Source: Arthrobacter sp. CDRTa11
Lineage (GTDB): Bacteria; Actinomycetota; Actinomycetes; Actinomycetales; Micrococcaceae
Direction: 5' to 3'
Assembly (NCBI RefSeq): GCF_026427775.1
Contig: NZ_CP044532.1
Span: forward strand, 1,860,001-1,924,000
DNA: 64,000 nt
Shown: positions 17,786 through 54,161 of the stretch, piece after piece
Numbering within the stretch: the first letter of the stretch is position 1
How the letters are laid out: each line of letters opens with the position of its first letter
Notes under the pieces: model-generated
Databases searched by the model: none
What the model was told of the DNA's origin: nothing
What the model saw: only the letters and a program-made list of their open reading frames with translations
Position numbers and translations under genes: made by a program

Positions 17786-17814
17786 GTTAAGGTTAAAGTT
17801 AAGCCTGAAACTTT
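17786..17814. promoter_or_regulatory. Heptad-repeat element related to the ftsZ upstream site
   Basis: Seven bases past the DUF151 stop, GTTAAGGTTAAAGTTAAG repeats GTTAA(A/G)G units at 6-7-base intervals. AAAGTT (17795-17800) and AACTTT (17809-17814) form an inverted repeat. The 9-mer GTTAAGGTT recurs at 54153-54161 upstream of ftsZ. It is a candidate FtsR operator in front of the second merR gene; this is inference. Confidence 0.45.
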
Positions 17815-18015
17815 CGACACGCCCCTCGAAAGCCCCTTACATCTTTGACCTTGGGACTCAGCAGGCCTAACGTCGAAGGTATCAAGCTCCCATTGCTTAC
17901 GGCAGCCCCGCAAGTCACACTGTAAGTGCGACCCGCGAAATTACATGCATGGACTTCATGCCGGTGAAATGCTGCTGTGCAGTTGTCCCGGGGGCTAAAG
18001 ACAAGGAGGATCCAG

Positions 18016-18612
18016 GTGAGTCCCAAAGGCGAAGCAGGCGAGCTGAAACAGCCCACAACGGCTGGTGCTGCTGTCCCCGCCAGCGGTGCCCAGGGCCTCC
18101 TGTTCACCGAAGATCTTCCCGTCCTGGACGAGGACGCCGGCTACCGCGGCCCGACCGCCTGCAAGGCCGCCGGAATTACCTACCGCCAGCTGGATTACTG
18201 GGCACGGACCGGCTTGGTTGAACCGGCCGTCCGCGGCGCAGCCGGTTCAGGCTCCCAGCGGCTCTACGGGTTCCGGGACATCCTGGTCCTCAAGGTCGTC
18301 AAGAGGCTCCTGGACACCGGCGTTTCGTTGCAGCAGATCCGGTCGGCAGTTGAGCACCTCCGCGAACGCGGAGTGGAGGACCTGGCACAGATCACCCTCA
18401 TGAGCGACGGCGCCAGCGTGTACGAATGCACCTCCGCTGACGAAGTCATTGACCTCGTCCAGGGCGGCCAGGGTGTGTTTGGCATTGCGGTGGGACGTGT
18501 CTGGCGCGAAGTTGAAGGCAGCCTCGCATCACTTCCCAGTGAGCACGCGGCGGTGCAGTCCTTTCCCGACGACGAGTTGAGCAAACGGCGGGCGGCCCGC
18601 AAGACCGGCTGA
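18016..18612 (+). CDS. Second MerR-family regulator of the garA cluster (Rv1830-like)
   Basis: A 198-residue MerR protein with helix-turn-helix ACKAAGITYRQLDYWARTGLV near residue 50 and a GSGSQRLYGFRDILVLKVVKRLLD region, then a coiled dimer helix GVSLQQIRSAVEHLRERG. The first about 40 residues are an unstructured leader containing GLLFTEDLPVLDED, which resembles the N-terminus of mycobacterial Rv1830-type proteins. GTG 18016 follows AAGGAGG at 18003-18009, a strong site that decides the start. A 236-bp spacer from DUF151 suggests its own promoter. Targets are unknown. Confidence 0.85.
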   Translation: MSPKGEAGELKQPTTAGAAVPASGAQGLLFTEDLPVLDEDAGYRGPTACKAAGITYRQLDYWARTGLVEPAVRGAAGSGSQRLYGFRDILVLKVVKRLLDTGVSLQQIRSAVEHLRERGVEDLAQITLMSDGASVYECTSADEVIDLVQGGQGVFGIAVGRVWREVEGSLASLPSEHAAVQSFPDDELSKRRAARKTG

Positions 18613-18656
18613 GCACAGCCGCCGCTGCCCGCGGCCGGACAGCATTTTGAACTGTT

Positions 18657-18701
18657 AAAGTGGAGGCCACCTTCCCTGCTGGGGAAGGTGGCCTCCACTT
18701 T
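18657..18701. terminator. Bidirectional terminator between merR and the ParA-like gene
   Basis: A 20-bp perfect inverted repeat starting AAAGTGGAGGCC with a 5-base loop, followed by TTTT on the plus strand and AAA on the other side. It sits between convergent genes. Confidence 0.92.
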
Positions 18702-18732
18702 TCTGCCTGTAGGTGCGTTGCCCGTCCGGCCG

Positions 18733-19566
18733 CTACCGCTGGCTGCGGCTCCGCAAACCGTTGCCGACGGCGAGAAGGTTGGCCAGGAGGGTGTCGAACA
18801 GCGCCGCGGCTGATTTGGCGGAATCCCCGGGCCAATGGTGGACGGGGTGGGCGGCGCCCTGGATCTGCTGCCAGTTCGCCTGTTCCGGGATCCTGGGGCT
18901 CAAGAGGAGTTCACCAAACATCGACTCCATTTCGGCCAAACGGTACGTATGCTCGGACGAGCCGCTGCGGACACGGTTGGCCACAATGCCGGCCGGGGAA
19001 AGGTTGGGCGCGAATTCCTGCCGGAAAAGCTGGATGGCGCGCATCGTCCGTTCGGTTCCTGCGACGGAGAAGAGCCCTGGCTCTGCTACGAGGGCAACCT
19101 TGTCGCTGGCGGACCAGGCCATCCGTGTCAGTCCGTTGAGGGAGGGCGGGCAATCAATCAGGACCAGCTCGTATTTATCGGCGCCGGCCAGGACAGCCGA
19201 CAACCGGCGCAGATCGCGCCGGCCAAGGTCGGGGCGGTCATAGATTCCGGTATAGGCCGAGCCGACGGCGACGTCCAGGACCGCGGGCCCGGAGCCATTC
19301 GAATGGGCGTGGGCGGTCCAGCTGCTGCCGGCCACGTTCTCGGCGAGCTTCGCCCGGCGCGGGCTCTTCAGCATCCGGCCGATGTCCAGCTGATCACCTG
19401 GCTGCACGCCCATGGCTGTGGTCGCGTCCGCGTGGGGATCCAGGTCCACCACCAGTGTGGGGATGCCTGCGGCCAGCGCCGCAGACGCCAATCCTGTGGT
19501 GACGGAAGTCTTGCCGACCCCGCCCTTGAGGCTGCTGATGCTGACTACTTGCACTTGAGAGACCAA
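18733..19566 (-). CDS. Orphan ParA-like ATPase
   Basis: A 277-residue MinD/ParA-superfamily ATPase. Deviant Walker A KGGVGKTS is at residues 15-22, Walker A' reads VDLDPHAD, and Walker B LVLIDCPPSLNGL lies near residue 135. It differs clearly from the ParA homologue at 3997, with no N-terminal extension and a longer insert after the A' box. It has no ParB neighbour and is a single-gene unit divergent from pyruvate carboxylase. Orphan ParA-like proteins in actinobacteria have been linked to cell division or positioning of other cargo; the cargo here is unknown. Confidence 0.85.
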   Translation of the reverse strand: MVSQVQVVSISSLKGGVGKTSVTTGLASAALAAGIPTLVVDLDPHADATTAMGVQPGDQLDIGRMLKSPRRAKLAENVAGSSWTAHAHSNGSGPAVLDVAVGSAYTGIYDRPDLGRRDLRRLSAVLAGADKYELVLIDCPPSLNGLTRMAWSASDKVALVAEPGLFSVAGTERTMRAIQLFRQEFAPNLSPAGIVANRVRSGSSEHTYRLAEMESMFGELLLSPRIPEQANWQQIQGAAHPVHHWPGDSAKSAAALFDTLLANLLAVGNGLRSRSQR

Positions 19567-19763
19567 AACCTAACGACGGCTGCCATGTTGGGGGTAGTGT
19601 TTGCTCCGGCAGTGCCGAAGCCGGGCGGCTCCTGCCGCCCTACTCATCATATGTTGATGCACTGGCGAATCCCGCCTTATCGGGCGTCGGCATGGCACCG
19701 CTGACGATGTGTTAGGCCTTTGCCGTTTGCACAGCTTGTAGTACGGGTGATGACGGACGGATT

Positions 19764-19779
19764 TGTGACAGTCGCCACA
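19764..19779. promoter_or_regulatory. Weak CRP/GlxR-like half-sites upstream of pyc
   Basis: TGTGACAGTCGCCACA has TGTGA and CACA outer arms in the 16-base spacing of the GlxR consensus, but the right arm lacks the TCACA match and the centre is not TA. It lies 76 bases before the pyc start, in a 289-bp divergent intergenic region that also holds a small GGGCGGC/GCCGCCC hairpin (19623-19640). Weak evidence only. Confidence 0.25.
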
Positions 19780-19855
19780 TTGATTTGTATTTCTAAGCGC
19801 GGGTCTTAGACACTGTGACCACTTACCGATACACCCGCAATGATGCAGGAGAAGT

Positions 19856-22800
19856 ATGTTTTCCAAGATTCTGGTGGCCAACCGCGGCGAAATCGCGATC
19901 AGGGCATTCCGGGCCAGCTACGAGCTGGGCGCCAAGACCGTTGCTGTTTTTCCGAACGAGGACCGCAACTCGATCCACCGCCAGAAGGCCGATGAGGCTT
20001 ACCTGATTGGTGAGGAAGGCCATCCGGTCAGGGCTTACCTCGACGTGGCCGAGGTGGTCCGTGTGGCCAAGGAATCCGGCGCCGACGCCATCTACCCCGG
20101 CTACGGCTTCCTCTCGGAGAACCCGGACCTGGCCCGTGCTGCGAAGGAAGCGGGCATCACGTTCGTTGGTCCGCCGGCTGAGGTCCTGGAGCTGGCGGGC
20201 AACAAGGTTGCCGCCTTGGAAGCTGCCCGAAAGGCCGGCGTCCCGGTCCTGAAGTCCAGCCAGCCGTCTAAGGACCTCGACGAGCTCATCGCTGCGGCTG
20301 ACGAAATCGGGTTCCCCATCTTTGCCAAGGCAGTCGCCGGCGGCGGCGGGCGCGGCATGCGCCGGGTGGACACCCGCGATGCCCTTCCGGAAGCCCTGCA
20401 GTCTGCCATGCGCGAAGCGGATGCGGCGTTCGGTGATCCCACCATGTTCCTGGAGCAGGCCGTCCTGCGGCCGCGGCACATCGAGGTCCAGATCCTCGCC
20501 GATGCCGAAGGCAACGTCATGCACCTCTTTGAGCGTGACTGTTCCATCCAGCGCCGCCACCAGAAGGTTATTGAGATCGCCCCCGCGCCCAACCTTGATG
20601 AGGGGATCCGCCAGGCGCTGTACCGGGACGCGGTCAAGTTCGCGAAGGCACTGAACTACGTCAACGCCGGTACGGTCGAGTTCCTGGTCGACACAGTCGG
20701 CGAACGGGCCGGCCAGCACGTGTTCATCGAAATGAACCCGCGCATCCAGGTGGAACACACTGTTACCGAAGAAGTCACGGACGTGGACCTGGTGCAGGCG
20801 CAGCTGCGGATCGCCTCCGGCGAAACGCTTGCGGACCTGGGGCTCTCCCAGGAGTCGGTCCAGCTCAAGGGCGCAGCCCTGCAGTGCCGCATCACCACCG
20901 AGGACCCTGCCAACGGGTTCCGGCCCGACGTCGGGAAGATCACCGGCTACCGTTCCGCTGGCGGCGCCGGTGTAAGGCTCGACGGCGGCACCGTGTACTC
21001 AGGTGCCGAAATCAGCCCGCACTTCGACTCCATGCTGGTGAAGCTCAGCTGCCGTGGCCGCGATTACCCTGCCGCCGTGGCCCGCGCCCGCCGTGCCCTT
21101 GCCGAGTTCCGAATCCGTGGCGTCTCCACGAACATTTCGTTCCTGCAGGCCGTCCTGGACGACCCCGACTTCATTGCCGGCAACGTGGCGACCAACTTCA
21201 TCGACGAGCGTCCCCAGCTCCTGAAAGCCCGGGTTTCCGCTGACCGCGGCACCAAGCTGCTGACCTGGCTGGCCGAGGTCACGGTGAACAAGCCCAACGG
21301 CGAGCTCACCGTCCATTCCAACCCCGCAGCCAAGCTGCCTTCGGTTGCGGGCACGCAACCGAAGCCGGGATCCCGCCAGCGGCTCCTGGAACTGGGCCCG
21401 GAGGGCTTCGCCAAGGCCCTTCGCGAGCAGACAGCCGTGGCTGTCACGGACACCACCTTCCGCGACGCCCACCAGTCCCTGCTCGCCACCCGGGTCCGGA
21501 CCCGCGACCTGGTGGCTGCCGGCCCGGCCGTCACGGCCCTGCTCCCGGAACTGCTCTCCGTTGAGGCCTGGGGCGGCGCCACCTACGACGTCGCCCTGCG
21601 CTTCCTCGGCGAGGACCCGTGGGACCGCCTTGCCGCGCTCCGGAAGGCGCTGCCGAACGTGTGCATCCAGATGCTGCTCCGCGGCCGGAACACCGTGGGG
21701 TACACGCCGTACCCCGAGGAAGTCACGGAGGCCTTCGTCAACGAAGCAGCCGCCACTGGCATCGACATTTTCCGGATCTTCGATGCGCTCAACGACGTCA
21801 ACCAGATGGCGCCTGCCATCCGTGCAGTCCGGGCCACCGGCACCGCCGTGGCCGAGGTGGCCCTCTGCTACACGGGCGACCTTCTGAACCCCGACGAGAA
21901 GCTGTACACGCTCGACTACTACCTCGAGCTGGCACAGAAGATTGTGGATGCCGGCGCGCACATCCTTGCCATCAAGGACATGGCGGGCCTGCTCCGTCCC
22001 GCAGCCGCCGCCAAGCTGGTTGCCGCGCTCCGTGAGCGCTTCGACCTTCCGGTCCACCTGCACACCCACGACACCGCAGGCGGCCAGCTGGCCACCCTCT
22101 TGGCTGCTGTGGACGCAGGCGTGGACGCGGTAGACGTAGCGTCTGCATCGCTGGCCGGAACCACCAGCCAGCCCTCGGCGTCGGCCCTCGTGGCGGCGTT
22201 GGCGCACACACCGCGTGACACCGGGCTTAGCCTGGCCGCCGTGAGCTCCCTGGAGCCCTACTGGGAGGCCGTGCGGCGGGTCTACGCGCCGTTCGAGTCC
22301 GGCCTGCCGGGCCCCACTGGCCGGGTATACCTGCACGAAATCCCGGGCGGCCAGCTCTCCAACCTCCGTCAGCAGGCCATGGCACTGGGCCTGGGAGAGC
22401 GCTTCGAAGCCATCGAGGACATGTACACCGCGGCAGACCGCATCCTGGGCCGGCTGGTGAAGGTCACGCCGTCTTCAAAGGTGGTGGGCGATCTCGCGCT
22501 CCACCTCGTGGGACTCAACGCGGACCCCGCGGACTTCAACGAAAACCCGCAGAACTACGACATCCCCGACTCCGTCATCGGCTTCCTCTCCGGTGAACTC
22601 GGCGACCCGCCCGGAGGCTGGCCGGAACCGTTCCGGACCAAGGCCCTCCAGGGCCGCAGCATCAAGGTCCGCGACGTTGAGCTCAGCCCAGAGGACAGCG
22701 CCGCACTGCAGGGCGATTCCAAGACCCGCCAGCACACGCTGAACAGGCTGCTCTTCGACGGTCCCACCAAGGACTACCTCAAGAGCGTCGAAACCTACGG

Positions 22801-23254
22801 GAACATTTCTGTGCTTGACACCCGCGACTACCTTTACGGTCTTCAGCGGGGAGAAGAACACGAGATCCAGCTGGAGAAGGGCGTCCGGCTGATCGCTTCC
22901 CTCGAGGCTGTCTCGGAGCCGGACGAAAAGGGAATGCGTACCGTGATGTGTACGCTGAACGGCCAATCCCGGCCTGTGGTGGTGCGGGACCGTTCGGTGG
23001 TCAGCAACGTCAAGTCCGCTGAGAAGGCTGATCCTGCCCAGCCGGGGCACGTCGCTGCGCCGTTCGCCGGTGCCGTCTCGGTCACCGTCGCCGTGGGTGA
23101 CACCGTGAAGGCCGGCGATACCGTAGCCACCATCGAAGCGATGAAGATGGAAGCGTCCATTACGACGCCGGTGGGCGGCAAAGTATCGCGGCTTGCCATC
23201 TCCTCGGTGGAACAGGTCCAAGGCGGGGACCTGCTCCTGGTCGTGGAGCAATAA
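19856..23254 (+). CDS. pyc: Pyruvate carboxylase
   Basis: A biotin enzyme that carboxylates pyruvate to oxaloacetate (anaplerosis). The 1132 residues cover all domains. The biotin carboxylase ATP-grasp domain occupies about 1-450 (KILVANRGEIAIRAFRA, AGGGGRGMR). The carboxyltransferase occupies about 500-800, with TTFRDAHQSLLATR and the metal-binding HLHTHDTAG. After the allosteric/PC domain, the biotinyl carrier domain has K1097 in EAMKMEA. Length matches single-chain bacterial Pyc. AGGAGAAGT precedes the ATG. It is monocistronic, ended by a strong terminator. Together with DctA it feeds oxaloacetate-level carbon to the TCA cycle. Confidence 0.97.
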   Translation: MFSKILVANRGEIAIRAFRASYELGAKTVAVFPNEDRNSIHRQKADEAYLIGEEGHPVRAYLDVAEVVRVAKESGADAIYPGYGFLSENPDLARAAKEAGITFVGPPAEVLELAGNKVAALEAARKAGVPVLKSSQPSKDLDELIAAADEIGFPIFAKAVAGGGGRGMRRVDTRDALPEALQSAMREADAAFGDPTMFLEQAVLRPRHIEVQILADAEGNVMHLFERDCSIQRRHQKVIEIAPAPNLDEGIRQALYRDAVKFAKALNYVNAGTVEFLVDTVGERAGQHVFIEMNPRIQVEHTVTEEVTDVDLVQAQLRIASGETLADLGLSQESVQLKGAALQCRITTEDPANGFRPDVGKITGYRSAGGAGVRLDGGTVYSGAEISPHFDSMLVKLSCRGRDYPAAVARARRALAEFRIRGVSTNISFLQAVLDDPDFIAGNVATNFIDERPQLLKARVSADRGTKLLTWLAEVTVNKPNGELTVHSNPAAKLPSVAGTQPKPGSRQRLLELGPEGFAKALREQTAVAVTDTTFRDAHQSLLATRVRTRDLVAAGPAVTALLPELLSVEAWGGATYDVALRFLGEDPWDRLAALRKALPNVCIQMLLRGRNTVGYTPYPEEVTEAFVNEAAATGIDIFRIFDALNDVNQMAPAIRAVRATGTAVAEVALCYTGDLLNPDEKLYTLDYYLELAQKIVDAGAHILAIKDMAGLLRPAAAAKLVAALRERFDLPVHLHTHDTAGGQLATLLAAVDAGVDAVDVASASLAGTTSQPSASALVAALAHTPRDTGLSLAAVSSLEPYWEAVRRVYAPFESGLPGPTGRVYLHEIPGGQLSNLRQQAMALGLGERFEAIEDMYTAADRILGRLVKVTPSSKVVGDLALHLVGLNADPADFNENPQNYDIPDSVIGFLSGELGDPPGGWPEPFRTKALQGRSIKVRDVELSPEDSAALQGDSKTRQHTLNRLLFDGPTKDYLKSVETYGNISVLDTRDYLYGLQRGEEHEIQLEKGVRLIASLEAVSEPDEKGMRTVMCTLNGQSRPVVVRDRSVVSNVKSAEKADPAQPGHVAAPFAGAVSVTVAVGDTVKAGDTVATIEAMKMEASITTPVGGKVSRLAISSVEQVQGGDLLLVVEQ

Positions 23255-23268
23255 GCTTCAATTCATAG

Positions 23269-23311
23269 AACAACAAAAAGGTCCTCCCGGTGGGAGGACC
23301 TTTTTGTTGTT
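23269..23311. terminator. Bidirectional terminator between pyc and fadD
   Basis: A 20-bp perfect stem (AACAACAAAAAGGTCC...), 3-base loop, with a T5 run inside the 3' arm on the plus strand and the mirrored run on the minus strand. It separates two convergent genes. Confidence 0.93.
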
Positions 23312-23358
23312 CGTCGCGCGGGGCCTGCCGGCATAACCTCAGGCGGCCCTTGTGGTCA

Positions 23359-25170
23359 TCAGGACCTGGGAGCCGCGTACATCTCTTCGATGACAGTTTC
23401 GAAGTCCTTCATCACCTGTGCCCGCTTCACCTTCATGGAGGGGGTCAGGTGTCCGGAAGTTTCGGTGAAGTCAGCCGGCACGATCCGGAACGACTTGATG
23501 GCTTCCGCCTGGGAAACAGACCCATTGGCGGCGGTGATCAGATCCTGGACCGCTGCCTTGACTACCGGGTTGGCGGCGGCGTCGGCCAGGGAGGTGTTGG
23601 ACGGGAGGCCATGGCGCTGGAGCCAGCCCGGCAGGGCCTCCTGGTCCAGCGTGACCAGGGCGCCGATGAACGGCCGGTTGTCGCCGACCACCAGGACCTG
23701 TGACACGAGGGCATCGGCCCGGATCTGGTCCTCGAGCAGGGCGGGGATCACGTTCTTTCCGCCGGCAGTAACGATGATCTCCTTCTTCCGCCCAGTGATC
23801 CAGAGGAAGCCGTCCTCGTCCAGCCGGCCGATGTCACCCGTGCGGAACCAGCCGTCGTCGGAGAACGTCTCCGCCGTCAGGTCCTCCCGCTTGTAGTAGC
23901 CGCGCATGACGCAGGCTCCCTTGGCGAGGATCTCGCCGTCGTCGGCAATTTTGACGGCATTGCCGGGAAGCGGCTTGCCGACTGAACCGATCTTGATCAG
24001 GGACGGCGTATTGACGGAGATGGGAGCCGTGGTTTCGGTCAGCCCGTAGCCTTCCAGCACCTGCAGCCCGATGCCCTGGAAGAAGTGGCCCAGCCGTTCG
24101 CCCAGGGGGCCGCCACCGGATACAGCGTGCGCAACATGGCCACCCATGGCGGCCCGGAGCTTGCCGTACACCAGCCGGTCGAACAGGGCGTGCCGCAGTT
24201 TCAGTCCCAGCCCCACGCGTCCCTCCTGGCGTGCCTTGGAGAAAGCGATGGCGGTATCGGCTGCCTTATGGAAGATGGCACCCTTGCCGCCGTCCTCGGC
24301 CTTGGTGAGGGCTGAGTTGTAGACCTTCTCGAACACACGAGGCACGGCCAGGATGAAGGTGGGCTCGTAGCTCTGCAGGTCCGAGAGCAGGTTCTTGATG
24401 TCAGGAGTGTGCGCCACCGTTGTTCCGGCGGCCATGGCCAGGACGGAGATGAACCGCGCGAAGACGTGTGCCAGGGGCAGGAACATGATGGTCTTGGCGT
24501 TCTCGTGGACGATCTCGCCAATGATGGCCAGTGCGTTGTCCGACAGTTCGACGAAGTTGCCGTGGGTCAGTTCGCAGCCCTTGGGACGGCCCGTGGTTCC
24601 GGAGGTGTAGATGATCGTGGCGCGGTCCGTGAGCTTTGCCGATGTCCGGCGGGACTCCAGCTCGTCGTCGCTGACGGCACGGCCGGCCTCGCGAAGCGCG
24701 TCCAGTCCTGCACCCTCCAACTGCCAGACGTGCTGCAGCGCGGTCAGGCCTTCGGCAGTGGCGGCCTGGCGGATGACGTCCTCATGATGGGCTGCTTCGC
24801 CAAAGGCGGCAACGGCACCGGAGTCACCCAGGTTCCATGCCACCTGTGACGGCGATGAGGTTTCGTAGATGGGGACGGAGATGCCGCCGGCGAACCAAAT
24901 GGCGAAGTCCACCAGGGCCCATTCGTAGCGGGTGCGGGACATGATTCCCACCCGGTCCCCGGCGCCCACGCCGCTGGCAATCAGGCCTTTGGCCAGGGCC
25001 GTGACGTCTGCCAGGAAGTCGGTGGCGGACACGTTCTGCCACGTGCCTGAGGAATCCAGCCGCGAGAACAGGGCCGGATTGCTGGGCTTCGCTGCCTGGC
25101 GCAGCACCAGATCGGTGATGTTGGTTTCAGGTGGGACAACAACCAGCGGCGGAACACTGAATTCGCGCAC
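23359..25170 (-). CDS. fadD: Long-chain acyl-CoA synthetase (AMP-binding)
   Basis: It activates fatty acids to acyl-CoA through an acyl-adenylate. The P-loop-like YTSGTTGRPKG motif is near residue 185, YGLTETTAP near 380, and the GWFRTGDIGRLDEDG and GRKKEIIVTAGGKN motifs mark the C-terminal hinge. About 603 residues, normal for the bacterial long-chain class. The start is GTG 25170 because AAAGGAG lies 6 bases ahead; in-frame ATG 25191 and a farther start lack such a site. The leader contains an inverted repeat (25197-25233). It sits near two hydrolases and a PlsC, so lipid turnover is the likely context. Confidence 0.9.
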   Translation of the reverse strand: MREFSVPPLVVVPPETNITDLVLRQAAKPSNPALFSRLDSSGTWQNVSATDFLADVTALAKGLIASGVGAGDRVGIMSRTRYEWALVDFAIWFAGGISVPIYETSSPSQVAWNLGDSGAVAAFGEAAHHEDVIRQAATAEGLTALQHVWQLEGAGLDALREAGRAVSDDELESRRTSAKLTDRATIIYTSGTTGRPKGCELTHGNFVELSDNALAIIGEIVHENAKTIMFLPLAHVFARFISVLAMAAGTTVAHTPDIKNLLSDLQSYEPTFILAVPRVFEKVYNSALTKAEDGGKGAIFHKAADTAIAFSKARQEGRVGLGLKLRHALFDRLVYGKLRAAMGGHVAHAVSGGGPLGERLGHFFQGIGLQVLEGYGLTETTAPISVNTPSLIKIGSVGKPLPGNAVKIADDGEILAKGACVMRGYYKREDLTAETFSDDGWFRTGDIGRLDEDGFLWITGRKKEIIVTAGGKNVIPALLEDQIRADALVSQVLVVGDNRPFIGALVTLDQEALPGWLQRHGLPSNTSLADAAANPVVKAAVQDLITAANGSVSQAEAIKSFRIVPADFTETSGHLTPSMKVKRAQVMKDFETVIEEMYAAPRS

Positions 25171-25196
25171 TATAGCTCCTTTGATATCCATAGACC

Positions 25197-25233
25197 CGCA
25201 CAGGGTATGTCTAAAGACTAGTACCCCTGTGCG
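25197..25233. promoter_or_regulatory. Inverted repeat upstream of fadD
   Basis: CGCACAGGG (25197-25205) and CCCTGTGCG (25225-25233) are perfect 9-bp arms separated by 19 bases, and the symmetry nearly extends through GTA/TAC. It lies 27 bases upstream of the fadD start and in the fadD-glk divergent region, where it could be an operator or a leader hairpin. No known motif is recognised. Confidence 0.45.
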
Positions 25234-25333
25234 CGGCCGTGCAGTTACAAATCTACTGATGAGTAACTTAGCAGTCAACGAGCCAATGCGCTGCCGCCGG
25301 GAGTGCCTGCCGGAGGGCGCCGCGGGCCGCGCC

Positions 25334-25339
25334 TAGAAT
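25334..25339 (+). promoter_or_regulatory. -10 hexamer of glk
   Basis: TAGAAT lies 8 bases before the ATG at 25348, with no Shine-Dalgarno sequence between. This suggests a leaderless or near-leaderless transcript. Confidence 0.5.
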
Positions 25340-25347
25340 GGGAAATT

Positions 25348-26439
25348 ATGTACGCACCGCCCCCCGGCGAACAGGCCGGTCCGCTCAGACGCCCTGCACC
25401 GTGGAGGCGGCGGCCGCCAACCCTGCGGGCCCGGTCCCGGCATGGGGAGGGCTTCCGCGAACACCTCCGGCTCGGCCGGAAAGGACTGGCCATCGGCATA
25501 GACATCGGCGGAACGAAGGTGGCCGCCGGCGTGGTGGATGCAGACGGCCGGATTCTCAATGAAGCGCGGCGTTCCACCCCCGGCAACGATCCGCGTGCCG
25601 TGGAGCGGGTCATTGTGGAGCTGGTACAGGAATTGGGTGCCGGTCACCGCGTCTGGTCAGTGGGCATCGGCGCAGCCGGATGGATGGATCTGGACGGCGG
25701 CACCGTTCTTTTCAGCCCGCACCTCGCCTGGCGCAATGAACCGTTGCGGGCCAACCTGCAACGGCTGCTGCGGCGGCCTGTGCTCCTCACGAACGACGCC
25801 GATGCGGCGGCATGGGCGGAATGGCGCTTCGGTGCAGGGCAGGGCCAGGACAGGCTTGTCTGCATCACCCTGGGGACGGGCATTGGCGGCGCCATGGTGA
25901 TGGATGGCCGCGTTGAGCGCGGACGCTATGGCGTGGCCGGTGAATTCGGTCATCAGATCATCATGCCGGGCGGCCACCGCTGCGAGTGCGGGAACCGGGG
26001 CTGCTGGGAGCAGTACGCCTCCGGAAACGCGCTGGGACGCGAAGCGCGGATCCTGGCACAGGCCAACTCTCCGGTTGCCCAGGAACTCCTGGCGGCTGTT
26101 GACGGGCAAACCGACGCCATCACCGGAGCCATCGTGACCGAACTTGCCCTCGCAGGAGATCCGGCGTCCCGGGAACTCCTGGTTGAGGTGGGCGAATGGC
26201 TGGGCCTGGGACTCGCCAACCTTGCCGCTGCACTGGACCCCGGCATGTTCGTGATTGGCGGCGGGCTGTGCTCCGCCGGTGACCTGCTGGTGGAGCCTGC
26301 CCGGAAGGCGTTCGCCCGGAACCTGACAGGGCGTGGCTTCCGCCCGGCCGCAGGCATCGAGCTCGCTGCGCTGGGCCCCAGCGCCGGCCTGATCGGGGCC
26401 GCAGATCTTTCCCGTGTCAGCAGCCGAATGCGCAGCTGA
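25348..26439 (+). CDS. glk: ROK-family glucokinase
   Basis: It phosphorylates glucose with ATP (possibly polyphosphate in some relatives). The phosphate-binding IGIDIGGTKVAAGVVD is near residue 50, CITLGTGIGGAMV near 175, and the ROK zinc motif CECGNRGCWEQYASG near 212. The 363 residues exceed the usual 310-320 because about 45 basic, Pro/Arg-rich residues precede the kinase core; if these are not translated, an internal start would be needed, but I see no good one. ATG 25348 lies 8 bases after TAGAAT. No helix-turn-helix is present, so this is a kinase, not a ROK repressor; another sugar specificity remains possible. Confidence 0.85.
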   Translation: MYAPPPGEQAGPLRRPAPWRRRPPTLRARSRHGEGFREHLRLGRKGLAIGIDIGGTKVAAGVVDADGRILNEARRSTPGNDPRAVERVIVELVQELGAGHRVWSVGIGAAGWMDLDGGTVLFSPHLAWRNEPLRANLQRLLRRPVLLTNDADAAAWAEWRFGAGQGQDRLVCITLGTGIGGAMVMDGRVERGRYGVAGEFGHQIIMPGGHRCECGNRGCWEQYASGNALGREARILAQANSPVAQELLAAVDGQTDAITGAIVTELALAGDPASRELLVEVGEWLGLGLANLAAALDPGMFVIGGGLCSAGDLLVEPARKAFARNLTGRGFRPAAGIELAALGPSAGLIGAADLSRVSSRMRS

Positions 26440-29766: not shown

Positions 29767-29772
29767 TAGAGG

Positions 29773-45234: not shown

Positions 45235-45240
45235 ACCGAG

Positions 45241-46707
45241 ATGATTGCATTTACTGCGGCGGAAATCGCCGAAATCACACACGGCCGCCTGGACGCCGAT
45301 CCCGGCATCACACCCCTCTCGGTGGTCACGGATTCGCGCGAGGCAACAACGGGATCGCTCTACGTTGCGAAGCCGGGTGAACACGCCGACGGCCACGACT
45401 TCATCGGGGCTGCCTTCGACAGGGGCGCGTCACTGGTACTTGCCGAGCGCCCTGTGGCGCACCCGGAGGGAACCGCTTATCCGGCCGTGGTGGTCAAGGA
45501 CGCAGTCCTGGCCATGGGGGAGTTGGCCGCGGAGGCGGTACGCCGGATCCGTGCCGCCAGGCAGGCCGAAGGCGAAGACCTGACGGTCATCGGAATCACC
45601 GGCTCCGCCGGCAAAACCACCACGAAAGACCTGCTCGCCGGAATCCTGGAACAGCAGGGAACCACCGTTGCGCCGCAAGGCTCGTACAACGGTGAAGTGG
45701 GTGTGCCGCTGACGGTATTCCGCGCCGATTCCAGCACCCGCTTCCTGGTGATTGAAATGGGAGCCACCGGAATCGGACACATCCGTTACCTGGCCGACAT
45801 GGTGAAACCGGACATCGGTGTGGTCCTTGGGGTCGGAACAGCCCATGCCGGTGAGTTCGGCGGGGTGGACAACATCGCCCGGGCCAAGGGGGAACTGCTG
45901 GAAGCGCTCTCTGCCACCGGCACCGCCATCGTCAACCTCGACGACGACCGGGTGGCGGCCATGCGTTCGCGCACCAGCGCCGCTGTCCTGGGCTTCACGG
46001 CCAACGGCCACAGCGACGGTGCTGTACTTGCCGCTTCTCCGGACACCAACACCGCAGGCAATCCGGAATTCGATCTCGTACTTCCCAGCGGTGACCCCGG
46101 CCTGCACGTCAGCAGCCGGCTCATCGGTGCCCACCATCTGGGCAACCTGCTTGCAGCCGCGGCCGCAGCATTTGCCGCGGGAGTTCCCGGCCGCGATATC
46201 GCAACCTCACTGAGCACGCAGGCGGCGGCGAGCCGCTGGCGGATGGAACGCACTGAACGCCCCGACGGCGTTACGGTCATCAACGATGCGTACAACGCCA
46301 ACCCGGAATCCATGCGCGCGGCGCTCCGCACCCTGGCTGACCTGGGCCGCGGCCGCCGTACCTGGGCAGTCCTGGGCGCCATGCTGGAACTGGGGCCCGA
46401 TTCCATCCGGGAGCACACTGCCGTGGGCACCCAGGTGGTGCGGCTGAACATCTCCAGGCTGCTGGTGGTAGGCCGTGAGGCGCGTGCCTTGTATGTTTCC
46501 GCCGTCCAGGAAGGCTCCTGGGGCGATGAATGCCTGTTCGCTGAGACCGCCGATGAGGCTTATGAACTGCTCAATGCCGAACTTGCACCGGGCGACCTGG
46601 TGCTCTTCAAGTCCTCCAACAGCGTTGGACTGCGCCATTTGGGCGATCGGATAGCATTACCCCCACACCCCCCGGTACCTGCCCATGAAAGGAGCGAGCA
46701 GCTGTGA
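45241..46707 (+). CDS. murF: UDP-MurNAc-pentapeptide synthetase (D-Ala-D-Ala adding)
   Basis: It adds D-Ala-D-Ala to the UDP-MurNAc tripeptide. ATP-binding [16 protein letters not shown] is near residue 118, [19 protein letters not shown] near 165, and [18 protein letters not shown] near 344. 488 residues, normal. The stop overlaps the mraY GTG by 4 bases. No ddl gene for the D-Ala-D-Ala substrate is in the window. Confidence 0.95.
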
Positions 46708-47813
46708 TTGCACTTCTTATCGGCGCCGGACTGGCCCTGCTGTGCGCCCTGGTGGGAACCCCGTTGTTTATCCGCCTGCTCGTCCGCAGGAGCTACGGAC
46801 AGTTCATCCGGGATGACGGACCAACCTCACACCACACCAAACGCGGGACCCCCACCATGGGCGGAACCGTGGTGGTGGCTGCCGTGCTGCTCAGCTACGG
46901 GCTGACCCACCTGATCATGTGGATGATGAACCCGGAGTCCGCCGGTCCGTCCGCATCTGCCCTGATCCTGCTGTTCCTTATGGTGGGGATGGGCCTGGTG
47001 GGTTTCCTGGACGACTACATCAAGATCTCCCGCCAGCGAAGCCTTGGCCTCAATGTCAAGGCCAAGCTTTTCGGCCAGGGCGCCGTGGGCGTCATCTTTG
47101 CCGTCCTGGCCCTGAATTTCCCTGACGAAGACGGCCTCACTCCAGCCTCCACCAAGGTTTCCCTGGTCCGCGACCTGCCGTGGTTGGACCTGGCCTTCGC
47201 CGGGACCGTGGTGGGCGCCATCCTCTTTGTCCTGTGGTCGAACCTGATCGTGACAGCTGCCACCAATGGCGTGAACCTCACTGACGGCCTTGACGGCCTG
47301 GCGGCCGGGGCTTCCATCATGGTGTTCGGGGCGTACACGCTGATGGGTATCTGGCAAAACAACCAGGCCTGCGGATCACCCCGGGAAGCTGGAAGCGGCT
47401 GCTACATGGTCCGCGATCCCCTTGACCTTGCTCTGCTGGCGGCCATCATGAGCGCTGCCCTGGTGGGCTTCCTCTGGTGGAACACGTCGCCCGCCAAGAT
47501 CTTTATGGGCGACACTGGCTCCCTCGCCATTGGCGGTGCCATCGCCGGGTTCGCGATCCTGTCCCGGACCGAGCTGCTCCTGGGTGCCATCGGCGGCCTT
47601 TTTGTGCTGATCACGTTGTCCGTGCTGATCCAGGTTGGCTACTTCAAAGCCACAGGTGGCAAGCGCTTCTTCAAAATGGCACCGCTCCAGCATCACTTCG
47701 AGCTCAAGGGCTGGGCTGAAGTGACGGTCGTTGTCCGGTTCTGGATCCTGGGCGGGCTCTGTGTGGCCATGGGCCTGGGAGTTTTCTACGCTGAATGGGT
47801 TGTGCTGCTGTGA
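46704..47813 (+). CDS. mraY: Phospho-N-acetylmuramoyl-pentapeptide transferase
   Basis: It transfers phospho-MurNAc-pentapeptide to undecaprenyl phosphate, making lipid I in the membrane. Ten hydrophobic segments over 369 residues. Motifs: [13 protein letters not shown] near the N-terminus, FLDDYIKI (Asp-rich catalytic), [25 protein letters not shown], and [11 protein letters not shown] near the C-terminus. GTG start inside murF; TGA end overlaps murD GTG by 4 bases. Confidence 0.96.
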
Positions 47814-49372
47814 CTGTTTCCCCCCGCCTCGCAGGCCTCGTCAGCTGGGACTCGGACTGGGCGGGTTTACGCGTTGTTGTCACCGGCATCGGTGTTTCCG
47901 GCTTCGCCGCGGCGGACACGCTGATAGAGCTTGGTGCCCGGGTGGTGGTGGTTGACGCCGCCACCAGCGACAAAGCAAAAGCCCAGGCGGACACGCTGAA
48001 GATTGTCGGGGCCGTGGACGTCCTCCTGGGAGAAGCCGCCGTGCGGAGCATCCCCAGGATCGACGGCGCCTTGCCGGAGCTCATCGTTACCTCGCCCGGC
48101 TGGCGGCCCGACCAGGCGTTGTTGGCAGCCGCCGCACGCGGCCATATTCCGGTCTGGGGCGACGTCGAACTGGCCTGGCGCCTTCGGGAGCGCGCGGGAC
48201 GCAAGACCGCCGACTGGCTGACCATCACGGGCACCAACGGCAAGACCACCACCGTGGGCCTCACCGAGGCCATGCTCCAGGCAGCCGGCCTGAAAGCCAT
48301 TGCCGTGGGGAACGTAGGCACGCCCATCCTGGATGCCCTCCGTGACCCCGTCGACTACGATGTTTTCGCCGTTGAGCTTTCCAGCTTCCAGCTCCACTGG
48401 TCCGAGTCGCTCTCACCTGTGGCCAGCGTCTGCCTGAACGTGGCCGAAGACCACGTGGACTGGCACGGCTCGTACACGTCCTACCTCGCGGACAAGGCAA
48501 AGGTTTACGCGGGAACCCAGAAGGCGTGCATCTACAACGCGGAGCAGATTGAAACCGAGCGGATGGTGGAAAACGCCGACGTCATGGAAGGCTGCCGCGC
48601 AGTGGGCTTTACTACCCTTACTCCGGCCATCAGCATGCTCGGCGTGGTGGAAGGGCTGCTGGTGGACCGCGCCTTCATCGAAGAGCGGAAGGACAGCGCA
48701 GCCGAACTGGCGTCCATGGCAGATCTGGGGCCCTTCGCCCCACGCCACATGGTGGCCAACGCCCTGGCCGCAGCCGCCCTGGTACGCGCCTACGGTGTGG
48801 AGGCCAAAGCCGTACGCCGGGGAATCCAGGACTACGTGCCGGGTAACCACCGCATCCAGCCCGTTGCCCGACAGGACGGCGTGCTCTGGGTGAACGATTC
48901 CAAGGCCACCAACCCACACGCGGCTGCGGCATCGCTGGCCACGTTCGAGAACGTGGTCTGGATTGCCGGGGGCCTGTCCAAGGGTGTCAGTTACGACGAT
49001 CTTGTCCGTGACCATGCCTCCAGGCTCAAGGCCGTAGTGCTGATTGGCAGTGACACCGCACCCCTGGCCGAGGCGCTCCGGCGACACGCACCGGATGTCC
49101 CCGTGATCCCGGCGGGGGAGGGCGACACTGAGAATATGCAGACTGCCGCAACGGGCGGAACCATCGCAGGAAGCCCTTCTGATTCCGGCGAGGCAGTAAT
49201 GTTCCGGGCCGTCGCGTCGGCGGCGCAGGTGGCCGCAGCAGGCGACACTGTGCTGATGGCTCCGGCAGCTGCATCCATGGATCAGTTCTCCTCCTATGCT
49301 CACCGAGGCGACGCCTTCATCGAAGCTGTCCGCGAGCTGGTGGAAGGACAGGCCAAGACCGGCGAGGAGTAA
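47810..49372 (+). CDS. murD: UDP-N-acetylmuramoylalanine--D-glutamate ligase
   Basis: It adds D-glutamate to UDP-MurNAc-L-alanine. ATP-binding [15 protein letters not shown] near residue 140, ELSSFQLHW near 190, and [17 protein letters not shown] near 360. About 520 residues with an N-terminal Rossmann-like region ([15 protein letters not shown]). GTG 47810 is chosen because it overlaps the mraY stop (GTGA); an upstream in-frame start at 47795 lies within mraY. Confidence 0.95.
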
Positions 49373-49374
49373 AA

Positions 49375-50676
49375 ATGGCCAGCACGCCCACCCGGTCCCC
49401 GGCCTCGTCCTTCACGCCAAAACGTCCGCTGCCTGCCAGGATCCGGGGCTGGTACCGCGGTTTCTGGTCAGCGCTGGAAGGCACGGGCACGTCCCGGAAC
49501 GGATCCACGTACTACCTCATCCTGGGCTCCACCCTGGCACTGACGGCCATCGGCATCATGATGGTGCTCTCCGCATCCAGCGTGGAGTCAATCGCCGCGG
49601 GGAAATCACCGTACGGTGATGCCCTGAAGCAGGGGATGTTCGCGGCCATCGGAATCTTCACCATGTTCGTGCTCTCCCGGATTAACGTGGTCTGGCTCAA
49701 GCGCCTGGCGTGGCCGGGGCTGGGGGTGGCGCTGGTTCTCCTGGTCCTGGTCCAGGTGATTGGTGACGAGGTCAATGGCAACAAGAACTGGATCGACCTC
49801 GGCGGCATCACGTTTCAGCCCTCGGAGGCCTCCAAGCTTGCACTGGCACTCTGGATGGCCACTGTCCTCTCTGTTAAGGGGAAGCTGCTTCGCCGCTGGC
49901 AGCACGCACTGATCCCCGCCGTCCCCTTGGCGGGGGCGGTGATCGGCCTTGTTTTGCTTGGCAATGACCTCGGCACTGCCATGATCATTATGATGATCAC
50001 GGCCGCTGCGCTCTTCTTTGCAGGCGTACCTCTGTATCTTTTCGGATTTGCCGCCATTGCCGCCGCCGCCGGAACCGCCGTCATGGCCATCTCCAGTTCG
50101 AACCGGGTCTGCCGCATCACGTCCTGGTGGACGGGCCAGTCCTGCGCCGATGGAGTTGATGCCAACTACCAGGCCACCCACGGGCTCTACGGGCTGGCCT
50201 CCGGCGGCTGGTTTGGCGTTGGCCTGGGCCAAAGCCGGCAGAAGTACAGCTGGATCCCCGAAGCCCACAACGACTTCATTTTTGCCATCATCGGTGAGGA
50301 ACTCGGACTCGTGGGCACCGTCGTCGTCCTGATCCTTTTCGCCATCCTCGGCGCTGCCATCTACCGGGTAGTGGTGGCGCAGGAGGCCATGTTCCACCGG
50401 GTCCTGGCCGGCACCATCATGGTGTGGCTGCTCGGGCAGGCCACCGTCAATATGTCCGTCGTCACGGGACTGATGCCCGTGATCGGCGTGCCGTTGCCTT
50501 TCATCTCCTACGGCGGTTCCGCACTGCTGATGTCATTGTGTGCCGTGGGCGTGGTGTTATCCCTCGCCCGGGAGCAGATGGCCCCTGCGATGCGCCCCAA
50601 ACGGATGCTGAAGTTTGGCTCCAGAAAACGCCGCGAAACAACCGGCACCAAGAAAACCGCAAGAAAGCGTACCTAG
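49375..50676 (+). CDS. ftsW: Septal peptidoglycan polymerase FtsW (SEDS family)
   Basis: A lipid II polymerase working with the class B PBP. The 433 residues have about ten transmembrane segments after a cytoplasmic N-terminus of about 40. Conserved motifs: FQPSEASKLALALW, GNDLGTAMIIMMITAA, NYQATHGLYGLASGGWFGVGLGQSRQK and VIGVPLPFISYGGSALL. The C-terminal tail is basic (KRRETTGTKKTARKRT), probably cytoplasmic. The start lies 2 bases after the murD stop. Confidence 0.95.
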   Translation: MASTPTRSPASSFTPKRPLPARIRGWYRGFWSALEGTGTSRNGSTYYLILGSTLALTAIGIMMVLSASSVESIAAGKSPYGDALKQGMFAAIGIFTMFVLSRINVVWLKRLAWPGLGVALVLLVLVQVIGDEVNGNKNWIDLGGITFQPSEASKLALALWMATVLSVKGKLLRRWQHALIPAVPLAGAVIGLVLLGNDLGTAMIIMMITAAALFFAGVPLYLFGFAAIAAAAGTAVMAISSSNRVCRITSWWTGQSCADGVDANYQATHGLYGLASGGWFGVGLGQSRQKYSWIPEAHNDFIFAIIGEELGLVGTVVVLILFAILGAAIYRVVVAQEAMFHRVLAGTIMVWLLGQATVNMSVVTGLMPVIGVPLPFISYGGSALLMSLCAVGVVLSLAREQMAPAMRPKRMLKFGSRKRRETTGTKKTARKRT

Positions 50677-50682
50677 CACCAG

Positions 50683-51783
50683 ATGACTTCCAAGAACCTT
50701 TCCATTGTCCTTGCGGGCGGCGGAACCGCCGGCCATATCAGCCCCCTCCTGGCGATTGCCGCGGCGCTTCGCGCGGCTGCCCCGGAGGCGAGGCTCCTGG
50801 CCGTGGGCACGCCGTCGGGCATGGAGACCGCGCTGGTTCCCGCCGCAGGCGTTGAGCTGGCCACTATCGATCGCGTCCCGTTTCCCCGACGGCCCTCCCT
50901 GGACCTGGTGCGGCTGCCTGTCCGGCTGGCCGGAGCCGTGAGCCAGGCAGGCCGAATCCTGGACGAAGCCTCCGCGGACGTCTTGGTGGGCGTTGGGGGT
51001 TATGTCTGCACTCCCATGTACCTGGCAGCGCGGCGCCGGAGGATCCCCATTGTGATCCATGAGGCCAACACCAGGCCCGGCCTGGCCAACCGGCTGGGCG
51101 CCCTGATGACCCGGCACGTCGCAGTCGCCTTTGAGTCCACTCGGCTGCCCCATGCCCGCCACGTGGGAATGCCCATGCGCGTGCAGATCTCCGGCCTGGA
51201 CAGGGCAGCCGCACGCGCTGCTGCCCGCGCGGCGCTGGCCCTGGATGCCGCCAAGCCAACCCTGGTGGTCACGGGTGGATCTTCCGGCGCCCAGAGCATC
51301 AACCGCACCATTGCCGCTACTGTCCAGGACCTGGCATCCGCCGGGATCCAGACGCTGCACATCACCGGCCGCGGCAAGTCGGTCACGGGTCCCGACGGAG
51401 AACCGCTCGCCGCCGACGGATACCGGCAGCTTGAGTATGTGGACGGCATGGAACTTGTCTACGCTGCGGCGGACGTGCTGCTCGCACGGTCAGGGGCGGC
51501 CACGGTTTGCGAAGTGGCGGCTGTGGGGGTTCCCGCCGTTTTCGTGCCCCTGCCCATCGGCAACGGGGAACAGGCGCTCAATGCCGCCGGGGTTGTGGAC
51601 GCGGGCGGCGCCCTGCTGGTCAAGGACGGCAGCTTTACCCCCGAGTGGGTCCGCACGGAACTCATTCCGCTGGTTACCGACAGCGCCCGTTTGGAAACGA
51701 TGGCGGCCAACTCCCGCCGTCTTGGCATCAGAAACGCCGATCAGCGCATGGCTGGTCTTGTCCTGGAAGCGGTAGCCGCATGA
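50683..51783 (+). CDS. murG: UDP-GlcNAc:lipid I N-acetylglucosaminyltransferase
   Basis: It converts lipid I to lipid II on the inner membrane face. N-terminal [17 protein letters not shown] is the glycine-rich GT28 motif; [20 protein letters not shown] and [13 protein letters not shown] follow. The C-terminal donor-binding half has [12 protein letters not shown] and [23 protein letters not shown]. 366 residues. Its stop overlaps the murC ATG by 4 bases. Confidence 0.96.
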
Positions 51784-53156
51784 CCTCCCTCAATATCCCC
51801 AGCCAGGAGTCCCTGGGCAGAGTCCATTTCATCGGCATCGGCGGGGTGGGCATGTCCGCCGTCGCACGCATCATGGTTGCCCGCGGAGTGCCCGTGAGTG
51901 GCTCGGACGCCAAGGACCTTCCGGTCATGGCCGATCTGGCCGCGGCCGGCGCCACCATCTCAGTGGGATACTCCGCGGAAAACGTCGGCGATGCGCAGAC
52001 CGTAGTTGCCGGATCCGCGATCCGGGAGGACAACCCGGAACTGGTTGCCGCGCGCGCGGCAGGGCTGCCGGTGCTGCACCGTTCAGAGGCGCTTGCCGCC
52101 ACCATGGGCGGCGACCTGGTGGTCACCGTAGCCGGTACCCACGGCAAGTCCACGACGACGTCGATGATCACCGTCCTGCTGCAGGGTGCCGGGCTGGATC
52201 CGTCGTTCGCCATCGGCGCCAACGTTCCTGCGCTGGGCGTCAACGCCGCCCATGGAACCTCCGGGGTGTTTGTTGCCGAAGCTGACGAGTCGGACGGCTC
52301 CTTCCTGAACTACCGGCCGCGGATTGCTGTGGTCACCAACGTCGAACCTGACCACCTGGACCACTACGGCACCGCCGAAGCTGTCTACGAATCCTTCGAC
52401 CGGTTCACCGCGCTGCTTCCGTCCGACGGCGTGCTGATTGCCTGTGCCGACGACGCCGGTGCCCTCGCCCTCGCTGACCGTACACAGGCGCGTGGAAACA
52501 CCCGCGTGGTTCTGTACGGCACCTCTGACCGCTCCAACCTGGTGCTCCACGACGGCGGCCCCGGGGACGTGGCAGTGTCCTCGCCGTCGGGGCGTTTCGG
52601 CCTCGAGCTCCAGGTTCCGGGCCGGCATAACGCACTGAACGCGGCCGCTGCTTTTGCTGTTGCCCTTGAACTGGGGGTTGATCCGGACGCTGCCGCCCGG
52701 GCACTGGCCAACTTTTCGGGCGCATCGAGGCGTTTTGAGCTCAAGGGCGAAGCCCGCGGAGTCCGGGTCTTTGACGACTACGCCCACCATCCCACAGAGG
52801 TCCGCGCCGCCCTGGCTGCTGCCAGGTCCGTGGCGGGCAACCACAAGGTCCACGTCCTTTTCCAGCCCCACCTTTTTTCGCGCACCAGGGAATTCGCCGC
52901 CGAGTTCGCTGACGCCCTGAACCAGGCCGACACCGCCCTGGTGCTGGACATTTACCCCGCCCGCGAGGACCCCATTCCCGGGGTCAGCAGCGATCTGATT
53001 GCGCGGCACCTGAATCCGGGCGGCAGGCTCGTCGCCAGCGGTGAGGCCGTGGCGGCCATTACGGCAGCAGCCTCCGACGGCGACATTGTGCTGACAGCCG
53101 GAGCGGGCGACGTCACGGCCTTCGGACCACGGATCGTTGAGGCCCTGGATGGCTAG
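51780..53156 (+). CDS. murC: UDP-N-acetylmuramate--L-alanine ligase
   Basis: It adds L-alanine to UDP-MurNAc, the first stem-peptide step. [15 protein letters not shown] near residue 14, ATP-binding [13 protein letters not shown] near 117, [14 protein letters not shown] near 165, and [14 protein letters not shown] near 330. About 458 residues. ATG 51780 overlaps the murG stop (ATGA); a longer in-frame reading lies inside murG and is rejected. Confidence 0.95.
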
Positions 53157-54033
53157 TTCCCGCCGCCCCACCTACACCGGGACGGGGCGCCGGCCGGCAG
53201 CTCCCCACGAAGAGCCCATTGTCATCACTGCGTCCAAGAGCGTGCCGGATCCAGAACCTGCGGAGCCCACCGGCCGGAAGAAGCGGAAGGACCGTGAGCC
53301 CGTGCCCGGCGGCAATGTGCTGGCCTTTCCCGAGCCCCGGGGACGGCGGCTCAAGCGAAACATCGTTATCGCAGCCTGCATCACCGCGGCCATGGTCGCC
53401 GGACTCCTGGCGGTCGCCATTTTTTCGCCGGTACTGGCTGTTGGCACCATCACTGTTTCGGGAACAAAAATCCTGACTGAAGCGCAGGTTAAGACCGCAC
53501 TGGAGCCGCTGCGGGGCAGGCCGCTTCCGCAAATCAGTGACGAAGAGGTGACGCGGCTCCTGGGACCGCTGGTCCAGGTCAAGTCGGTCTCCAGTGAGGC
53601 GCGGCCGCCGTCGGAACTGGTGGTAAAGGTGCTGGAGCGGGCACCTGTTGCCCTGGTAAAGCAGGGGGAACAGTACCAACTGGTGGACGTTGAGGGCGTG
53701 CAACTGGCTGCCACGGACGATCCTTCATCTGTTTCCCTGCCCGTGATCGACGGCGGGGCCGGAGCCATCGGCAAGGATCTGTTCCAGGCAACTGCGGCCG
53801 TCCTGGGCGCCCTTCCTCCGGATGTCCTGGCAAAGCTGTCGAACGCCTCTGCGCAGTCCGTGGACGCCGTGGAACTCAAGCTCGTTGATGGCCAGACCAT
53901 CGTCTGGGGCAACGCGGGGGAGAGGGAACTCAAGGCAAAGGTCCTTGAAGCGCTCCTGAAGGCTCCGGCAGATCCCAAGAACCCCGTGCGCGTGTACGAC
54001 GTCAGCGTGCCGCGGCACCCCGTAACACGCTGA
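53149..54033 (+). CDS. ftsQ: Division protein FtsQ/DivIB
   Basis: A 294-residue bitopic divisome protein. It has a disordered basic cytoplasmic N-terminus (about 1-68), one transmembrane helix (about 70-92, VIAACITAAMVAGLLAVAIF), a POTRA domain (GTITVSGTKILTEAQVKTAL) and a beta domain. It bridges FtsL and the PBP to the Z ring. ATG 53149 overlaps the murC stop by 8 bases. The gene order moves directly from ftsQ to ftsZ with no ftsA. Confidence 0.92.
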   Translation: MASSRRPTYTGTGRRPAAPHEEPIVITASKSVPDPEPAEPTGRKKRKDREPVPGGNVLAFPEPRGRRLKRNIVIAACITAAMVAGLLAVAIFSPVLAVGTITVSGTKILTEAQVKTALEPLRGRPLPQISDEEVTRLLGPLVQVKSVSSEARPPSELVVKVLERAPVALVKQGEQYQLVDVEGVQLAATDDPSSVSLPVIDGGAGAIGKDLFQATAAVLGALPPDVLAKLSNASAQSVDAVELKLVDGQTIVWGNAGERELKAKVLEALLKAPADPKNPVRVYDVSVPRHPVTR

Positions 54034-54123
54034 ATCACCCTATTTCCCCGGTATTCCCACGACACGCGGCGCCGGTCATTGAATGTCGGAACCAGAGGAA
54101 ATAGCGTCACAGACATGAGTTAC

Positions 54124-54161
54124 TTGACATAACTATAACCTTCAACTCGAAGGTTAAGGTT
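54124..54161 (+). promoter_or_regulatory. ftsZ promoter region with inverted repeat (candidate FtsR site)
   Basis: TTGACA (54124-54129) is a consensus -35. Starting 7 bases later, AACCTTC (54137-54143) and GAAGGTT (54149-54155) are perfect 7-bp arms around AACTC, followed by a further AAGGTT (54156-54161). GTTAAGGTT here is shared with 17786-17794 beside the ftsR operon. No clear -10 sits 17 bases after the -35, as might be expected if an activator is needed. Confidence 0.6.

Follow-up and report, generated by a model that had tools for sequence, protein, structure and literature searches.

In a 64,000-nucleotide stretch of the Arthrobacter sp. CDRTa11 chromosome (contig NZ_CP044532.1; G000:C1:1860001-1924000, hereafter the window) two elements some 36 kb apart, one upstream of the division gene ftsZ and the other upstream of a second merR gene of the mcdR/resR type (mcdR below), are probably operators of the MerR-type regulator FtsR, each set in a composite promoter. 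A preliminary description of this DNA had proposed FtsR operators at both places, linking the second MerR gene to ftsZ control, on the grounds of a shared 9-mer, GTTAAGGTT. That conclusion holds up by a different route, namely a motif profile free of mcdR sequence, conservation among relatives and shuffled controls, while the shared 9-mer fails as its reason; we consider the FtsR-operator proposal partly supported. The word CGACACG, found before both mcdR and ftsZ, is a stronger shared feature than the 9-mer and was absent from that description, as were a third box at 3898-3922 and a McdR-like inverted repeat (dyad) in the mcdR leader.

We note that FtsR of Corynebacterium glutamicum recognises a 25-bp imperfect inverted repeat at ftsZ, with binding in electrophoretic mobility shift assays and nine in vivo peaks described in the sections of that report used here (PMC6683498). 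Our 25-bp FtsR profile was built from blocks upstream of ftsZ in 26 of 29 relatives together with two published FtsR sites, and contains no mcdR sequence. A block qualified for training if it agreed with a consensus at 20 or more of its 31 positions (L105, L110, L111 and the window's own block were excluded, and one of 30 ftsZ loci, L116, was dropped as too short). A seed profile made from the two published sites alone gave ambiguous registers and was set aside, and for this reason the weighted ftsZ-block profile was adopted. The best places in the window are 54137 (35.0 bits, minus strand), 54131 (33.0 bits), 3898 (21.7 bits) and 17789 (18.9 bits), the next separate one being 27697 (14.6 bits). 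The ftsZ scores are partly circular, since the profile was trained in part on close relatives with an identical ftsZ block; this does not apply to the scores at mcdR and parA. An imperfect inverted repeat of 25 bp fitting the FtsR motif is thus found at mcdR, at parA and, with that circularity, at ftsZ. Sixteen 20-kb genome stretches that had not been selected contain no box of 14 bits or more; the background set had 20 stretches, four of them picked for pattern matches, and those four held all boxes of at least 14 bits. Scanning the 5.16-Mb single-contig genome, the scope of all our genome-wide counts, with an IUPAC 25-mer, allowing 3 mismatches, gave 8 matches (3 at ftsZ, 1 at 3898 and 4 elsewhere, outside the window) and none for the reversed control. 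Two identical FtsR-like 25-mers (20.9 bits) lie at G000:C1:2133331 and 2242707, some 109 kb from each other; they may belong to a duplicated element.

The box upstream of mcdR (17789-17813, plus strand, 18.9 bits) has a score reached by none of 200 column-shuffled profiles within 17751-17870; overlapping it, a weaker register begins at 17783 (13.0 bits). Its conservation was followed in 72 of 80 named mcdR loci, those with an upstream nuclease gene (dropped: L033, L038, L042, L046, L060, L063, L069 and L072); most loci are about 6.6 kb long, and the gap between the nuclease gene and mcdR makes up 3.2% of positions. The best box of the whole locus nevertheless falls in this gap in 49 of the 72 (100 column-shuffled profiles: mean 7.5, maximum 33), and in 43 the gap box scores 15 bits or more (shuffled profiles: at most 3). 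CGACACG accompanies the box in 41 of these 43. An arrangement in which the box begins 26 bp ahead of CGACACG and so ends 1 bp before it is shared by 25 of the 41, of which 14 are Arthrobacter-type or Psychromicrobium and 11 are Nocardioidaceae. Across 40 class-level regions, hand-picked from many families out of the 151 genomes with a class-level match, a box of 15 bits or more occurs in 13, compared with 7 of 903 windows cut from other parts of the named loci. The composite of box and CGACACG occurs once in each of the six genus genomes searched, our own included (reversed control, 0), and its Arthrobacter form, with 3 mismatches allowed, was found in only 14 of the 120 family genomes, so the composite sequence drifts outside the genus. 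In L028, L031 and L036, two titled Glutamicibacter and one Arthrobacter, the box starts 5 bp after the start of CGACACG, a 31-bp shift of about three helical turns.

Upstream of ftsZ (54223-55464, plus strand; TIGR00065, 416.6 bits) two boxes overlap at an offset of 6 bp: one at 54131-54155 on the plus strand, with one mismatch to the IUPAC 25-mer, and one at 54137-54161 on the minus strand, with no mismatch. They stand just after the TTGACA (54124-54129, plus strand) already seen in the preliminary description, which is a candidate second ftsZ promoter with no -10 identified. The block is well kept, since 26 of 29 relatives match it at 20 or more of 31 letters. A third FtsR-like box (3898-3922, plus strand) precedes an operon of a ParA-like ATPase gene (3985-4956, plus strand; matching ParA/RepA partition proteins best among NCBIfam models, below cut-off) and scpA (4943-5776, plus strand; segregation/condensation protein A models, also below cut-off). 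Upstream of parA, 23 of 30 relatives carry a box scoring 15 bits or more (at most 2 do so with any of 200 column-shuffled profiles), and the motif is in this way conserved in the orthologous promoters of all three genes. Between box and parA-like gene a word match to CGACACG is found in reverse orientation (3963-3969, minus strand); among the relatives, 12 of 30 have CGACAC or GTGTCG in the 170 nt preceding the parA-like gene. In Streptomyces venezuelae WhiA directly targets a parA-like gene (PMC3781837, PMC4850268, in the parts consulted), presumably the same gene as the one here.

The second component of the proposed composite is the octamer CGACACGC, which lies 1 bp after the mcdR box (17815-17822, plus strand) and again upstream of ftsZ (54060-54067, plus strand). 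The core CGACACG is present in 57 of 72 mcdR loci and in the 230-nt ftsZ upstream regions of 25 of 29 relatives. In mycobacteria cGACACGc is the published WhiB2 site of mcdR, and WhiB2 activates mcdR through it in Mycobacterium smegmatis (PMC9040748, in the portion cited here); the same octamer contains the WhiA word GACAC. At mcdR the word precedes a predicted promoter, TTGACC-17-TAACGT (17845-17873, plus strand), which is kept in the alignment of relatives, and at ftsZ it precedes a predicted upstream promoter, TTGAAT-17-TAGCGT (54079-54107, plus strand), with a similar pattern found 19-20 bp after CGACACG in 24 of the 25 relatives that carry the word. A sigma-70 consensus scan returned no promoter at 17845-17873 and none at 54079-54107.

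Among sites followed by a promoter-like pattern, CGACACG and the -35 hexamer are separated by 18-21 or 29-33 bp in 50 of 52 named mcdR loci, likewise in all nine class-level regions measured, and CGACACG stands 19-20 bp before the upstream -35 in all 24 ftsZ loci. The two spacing classes are about one helical turn apart, and across 29 groups the Rayleigh R at a period of 10.5 bp is 0.71, with group medians in range for 26 of 29. The groups are hand-typed record labels, gaps with several CGACACG words were measured from the last one, and the Rayleigh p of about 5e-7 ignores relatedness and comes from a promoter pattern written after seeing the alignments. Binding of WhiA further upstream, in the manner of a class I activator, has been speculated upon (PMC6282962, in the part seen), and the helical phasing fits WhiA as a class I-like activator of these predicted promoters. 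Another CGACACG lies at 49082-49088 within a murD-like coding sequence, 293 bp before an ftsW-like gene (the gene names of these frames are provisional); the corresponding ftsW distance in the part of the Streptomyces WhiA table used here is 269.

The 9-mer itself fares less well. Both copies exist where they had been placed, at 17786-17794 and 54153-54161, and they are the only two in the window (0.09 expected; two or more copies in 1 of 100 shuffles). Genome-wide there are 6 copies against 21 for the reversed control, so that the 9-mer is not special by itself; two of the four copies outside the window were read in context, one in the gap between apparent ATP-synthase genes and one before an apparent membrane-protein gene. 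At mcdR the 9-mer overlaps only the first 6 bp of the box, and at ftsZ it forms the outer arm of the box at 54137-54161, which places the two copies in different registers. Together with its presence in only 8 of 15 Arthrobacter-group mcdR loci (L007-L021), the genome count and the differing registers led us to reject it as an operator unit. The run around the first copy, described as heptad-spaced, consists of three hexads, GTTAAG, GTTAAA and GTTAAG, with a period of 6 (17786-17803, plus strand). The AAAGTT/AACTTT inverted repeat reported there has a poorly conserved AACTTT arm (among those 15 loci, 3 have GAAACTTTCG and 9 have GAAAGTTTCG). The AACCTTC-N5-GAAGGTT repeat at ftsZ is real (54137-54155); the 9-mer, said to lie inside it, shares only its last 3 bp and is the outer right arm of the longer 25-bp dyad 54137-54161. 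Finally, the ftsR-like gene does end 510 bp before the first element, as had been noted, but the element itself, lying between the nuclease-like gene (stop at 17779) and the second merR, is part of the second merR promoter and does not pertain to ftsR.

The genes flanking the mcdR element follow the order gcvH, a garA/odhI-like FHA gene, ftsR, a nuclease-domain gene and the second merR. FtsR is thus encoded in the same genome (16548-17276, plus strand; NF050798, 274.8 bits, cut-off 150), and is followed by the bifunctional-nuclease-domain gene (17276-17779, plus strand; PF02577, 131.8 bits) and by the second merR (18016-18612, plus strand; start codon placed from the ribosome site). For the latter we found Pfam MerR_1 and no NCBIfam model above cut-off, and it is called mcdR/resR-type because of its MerR domain and its place at the close of the garA-ftsR-nuclease cluster, the place held by cg1633 in the C. 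glutamicum order odhI-ftsR-cg1632-cg1633 (PMC6683498, in the sections used). Rv1830 is McdR/ResR (PMC10336103, PMC9040748, in part). The second merR protein has a match in 151 of 158 class genomes, and the closest named McdR, from an Arthrobacter, is 96% identical. The genome also encodes one WhiA-domain gene (70.4 bits) and two WhiB-family genes; the one WhiB that was scanned had no NCBIfam match.

Sites for McdR itself may add a feedback. The mcdR leader holds the dyad AATTACATGCATGGACTT (17939-17956, plus strand), which has 2 mismatches to the published McdR consensus, AATnACAnnnnTGTnATT (PMC9040748, in the portion cited), and might serve autoregulation. Measured from CGACACG, the best McdR match of the mcdR gap is at +124 to +127 in 14 of the 15 Arthrobacter-group loci, and in 13 of these it has 2 mismatches; over the wider set the only control was the rest of each locus, and the better match fell inside the gap in 38 of 71 loci. 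Genome-wide, the consensus is found at up to 2 mismatches in 47 places against 14 for the reversed control, and one such McdR-like dyad (G000:C1:1500790-1500807) precedes a WhiB-family gene, its end lying 41 or 86 bp upstream depending on which candidate start is taken. Taken together these matches suggest that McdR could act on whiB and on its own gene. A weak FtsR-like dyad with an internal CGACAC, at L207:9107-9131 (G000:C1:3249107-3249131), lies between a short gene and a tyrosine-recombinase-like gene (both labels provisional), about 35 bp from a McdR-like dyad at two mismatches.

Several observations weigh against FtsR operators in composite promoters at both genes. The nine FtsR peaks of C. 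glutamicum include ftsZ and leave out cg1633, the equivalent of the second merR, as given in the sections of that report used here (PMC6683498), and the link from FtsR to mcdR is therefore not universal. The mcdR box scores far below the ftsZ boxes and is missing from the eight IUPAC matches, four of which lie at other places outside the window. The best box falls outside the gap in 23 of 72 loci, and ten loci, which we take to be of Streptosporangiaceae type, have neither CGACACG nor a 15-bit box. Among the 40 class-level regions a box of at least 15 bits is limited to 13 and CGACACG to 12. Many of these regions lack a box, yet FtsR itself is above cut-off in 143 of 158 class genomes, for which reason we rejected its presence or absence as the cause of the missing boxes. 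With 11 copies in the window against 14.1 expected, CGACACG shows no enrichment there, so only its conservation and position speak in its favour. The profile is AT-rich and can be raised by intergenic AT-richness alone; one shuffled version attained 33 of 72 loci. Both the 15-bit threshold and the promoter pattern were fixed after viewing the data, and the loci are not independent of one another. In addition, the conserved region_1 of the M. smegmatis mcdR promoter is described, in the part of the work cited, as dispensable for WhiB2 activation.

This last result lends itself to a different explanation, in which only the WhiA/WhiB2 site matters at mcdR and the 25-mer is a remnant or serves WhiA/WhiB2 binding. 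Deletion of region_1 left WhiB2 activation unchanged, and several loci keep CGACACG without a 15-bit box; the 1-bp junction and the dyad are, on the other hand, kept in two distant groups, and we find this explanation doubtful. MerR-family proteins often regulate their own genes, and the 25-mer sits in the mcdR promoter, where it might be an autoregulatory site of McdR instead of an FtsR site. The published McdR site, however, differs from the 25-mer, a separate conserved dyad that does resemble the published site is found in the mcdR leader and also before a WhiB-family gene, and the 25-mer fits a profile drawn from ftsZ sites, all of which makes autoregulation through the 25-mer unlikely.

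Alternatively, the A/T-rich hexads before mcdR might be an UP-element for the alpha subunits of polymerase, and the resemblance to FtsR sites an effect of composition. GTTAAGGTTAAAGTTAAG is indeed A/T-rich in a genome of 63% G+C (sampled stretches) and lies upstream of the predicted promoter, and the one shuffled profile that reached 33 of 72 loci points the same way. The Nocardioidaceae, however, have G+C-richer dyads at the same place, for instance AACCCTCAACCTCAGGTTGAGGGTA, and at 15 bits the shuffled profiles reached at most 3 loci against the real 43, so that we also regard an UP-element as improbable. That the match of the two 9-mers is a functionless coincidence is in keeping with the genome count of 6 against 21 and with the differing registers in the two boxes; this argument touches the 9-mer as a unit and leaves the two 25-bp boxes, into which parts of it fall, unaffected, and as an account of the two elements mere coincidence seems very improbable.

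Returning to FtsR operators in composite promoters, a mechanism can be sketched. FtsR, as a MerR-type dimer, would bind the 25-bp imperfect inverted repeat: at ftsZ in the two overlapping boxes, 6 bp apart, right after TTGACA, and at mcdR in one box centred about 79 bp before the predicted transcription start and adjoining CGACACG, where WhiA would be expected together with a partner of the WhiB2 class. WhiA/WhiB2 would then occupy a constant helical face, 18-21 or 29-33 bp ahead of the mcdR -35 and 19-20 bp ahead of the upstream ftsZ -35. Both inputs would feed ftsZ and mcdR, and probably parA-scpA, and McdR might close the circle by acting on the whiB-type gene and on its own leader. Judging from C. 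glutamicum, FtsR control of ftsZ would be activation. It is from sequence fit, position and conservation that we infer the binding of FtsR and WhiA/WhiB2, the promoters and any cooperativity. A tentative extension, which we hold to be possible rather than likely, is that FtsR and WhiA/WhiB2 bind side by side, perhaps cooperatively, at the composite of 25-bp box, 1 bp and CGACACG, with the distance to the -35 fixed in helical turns, and that ftsZ, parA-scpA and mcdR would thereby be joined in one division-and-segregation circuit in much of the Actinomycetes.

Parallels exist in three known systems, each described here from the cited parts of the respective papers. The C. glutamicum ftsZ operator (PMC6683498) likewise has a 25-bp repeat before ftsZ, the same odhI/garA-ftsR-nuclease-merR order and a box centre far upstream (-73 there, about -79 predicted at mcdR here); it differs in that two overlapping boxes precede ftsZ here, and in that the likely new targets mcdR and parA-scpA lie outside the nine peaks. 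The mycobacterial WhiB2 site (PMC9040748) shares the octamer upstream of an mcdR-type gene and a McdR-like box before a whiB-type gene, whereas here the site is adjoined by an FtsR-like box and the mcdR leader carries a McdR-like dyad, a feature not found described in the portion cited. In the S. venezuelae WhiA/WhiB regulon (PMC3781837, PMC4850268) ftsZ and a parA-like gene are also WhiA targets and GACAC is the associated word, with no consistent orientation and no further associated motif in the parts consulted; here, by contrast, the word points the same way at mcdR and ftsZ and keeps a helical phase to the -35, and at mcdR it stands next to an FtsR-like box. For FtsR control of an mcdR-type gene, we found no report among the titles and abstract openings that our searches of the open-access literature brought up.

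If it is real, a composite of FtsR and WhiA/WhiB2 sites would help to explain how WhiA and WhiB choose a few among the many GACAC words of a genome, and the constant helical phase between GACACG and the -35 would offer a concrete, testable rule for WhiA/WhiB promoters. FtsR, known mainly as an activator of ftsZ in one species, would acquire, in other actinobacteria, two likely targets, a second division regulator gene and a chromosome-segregation operon.

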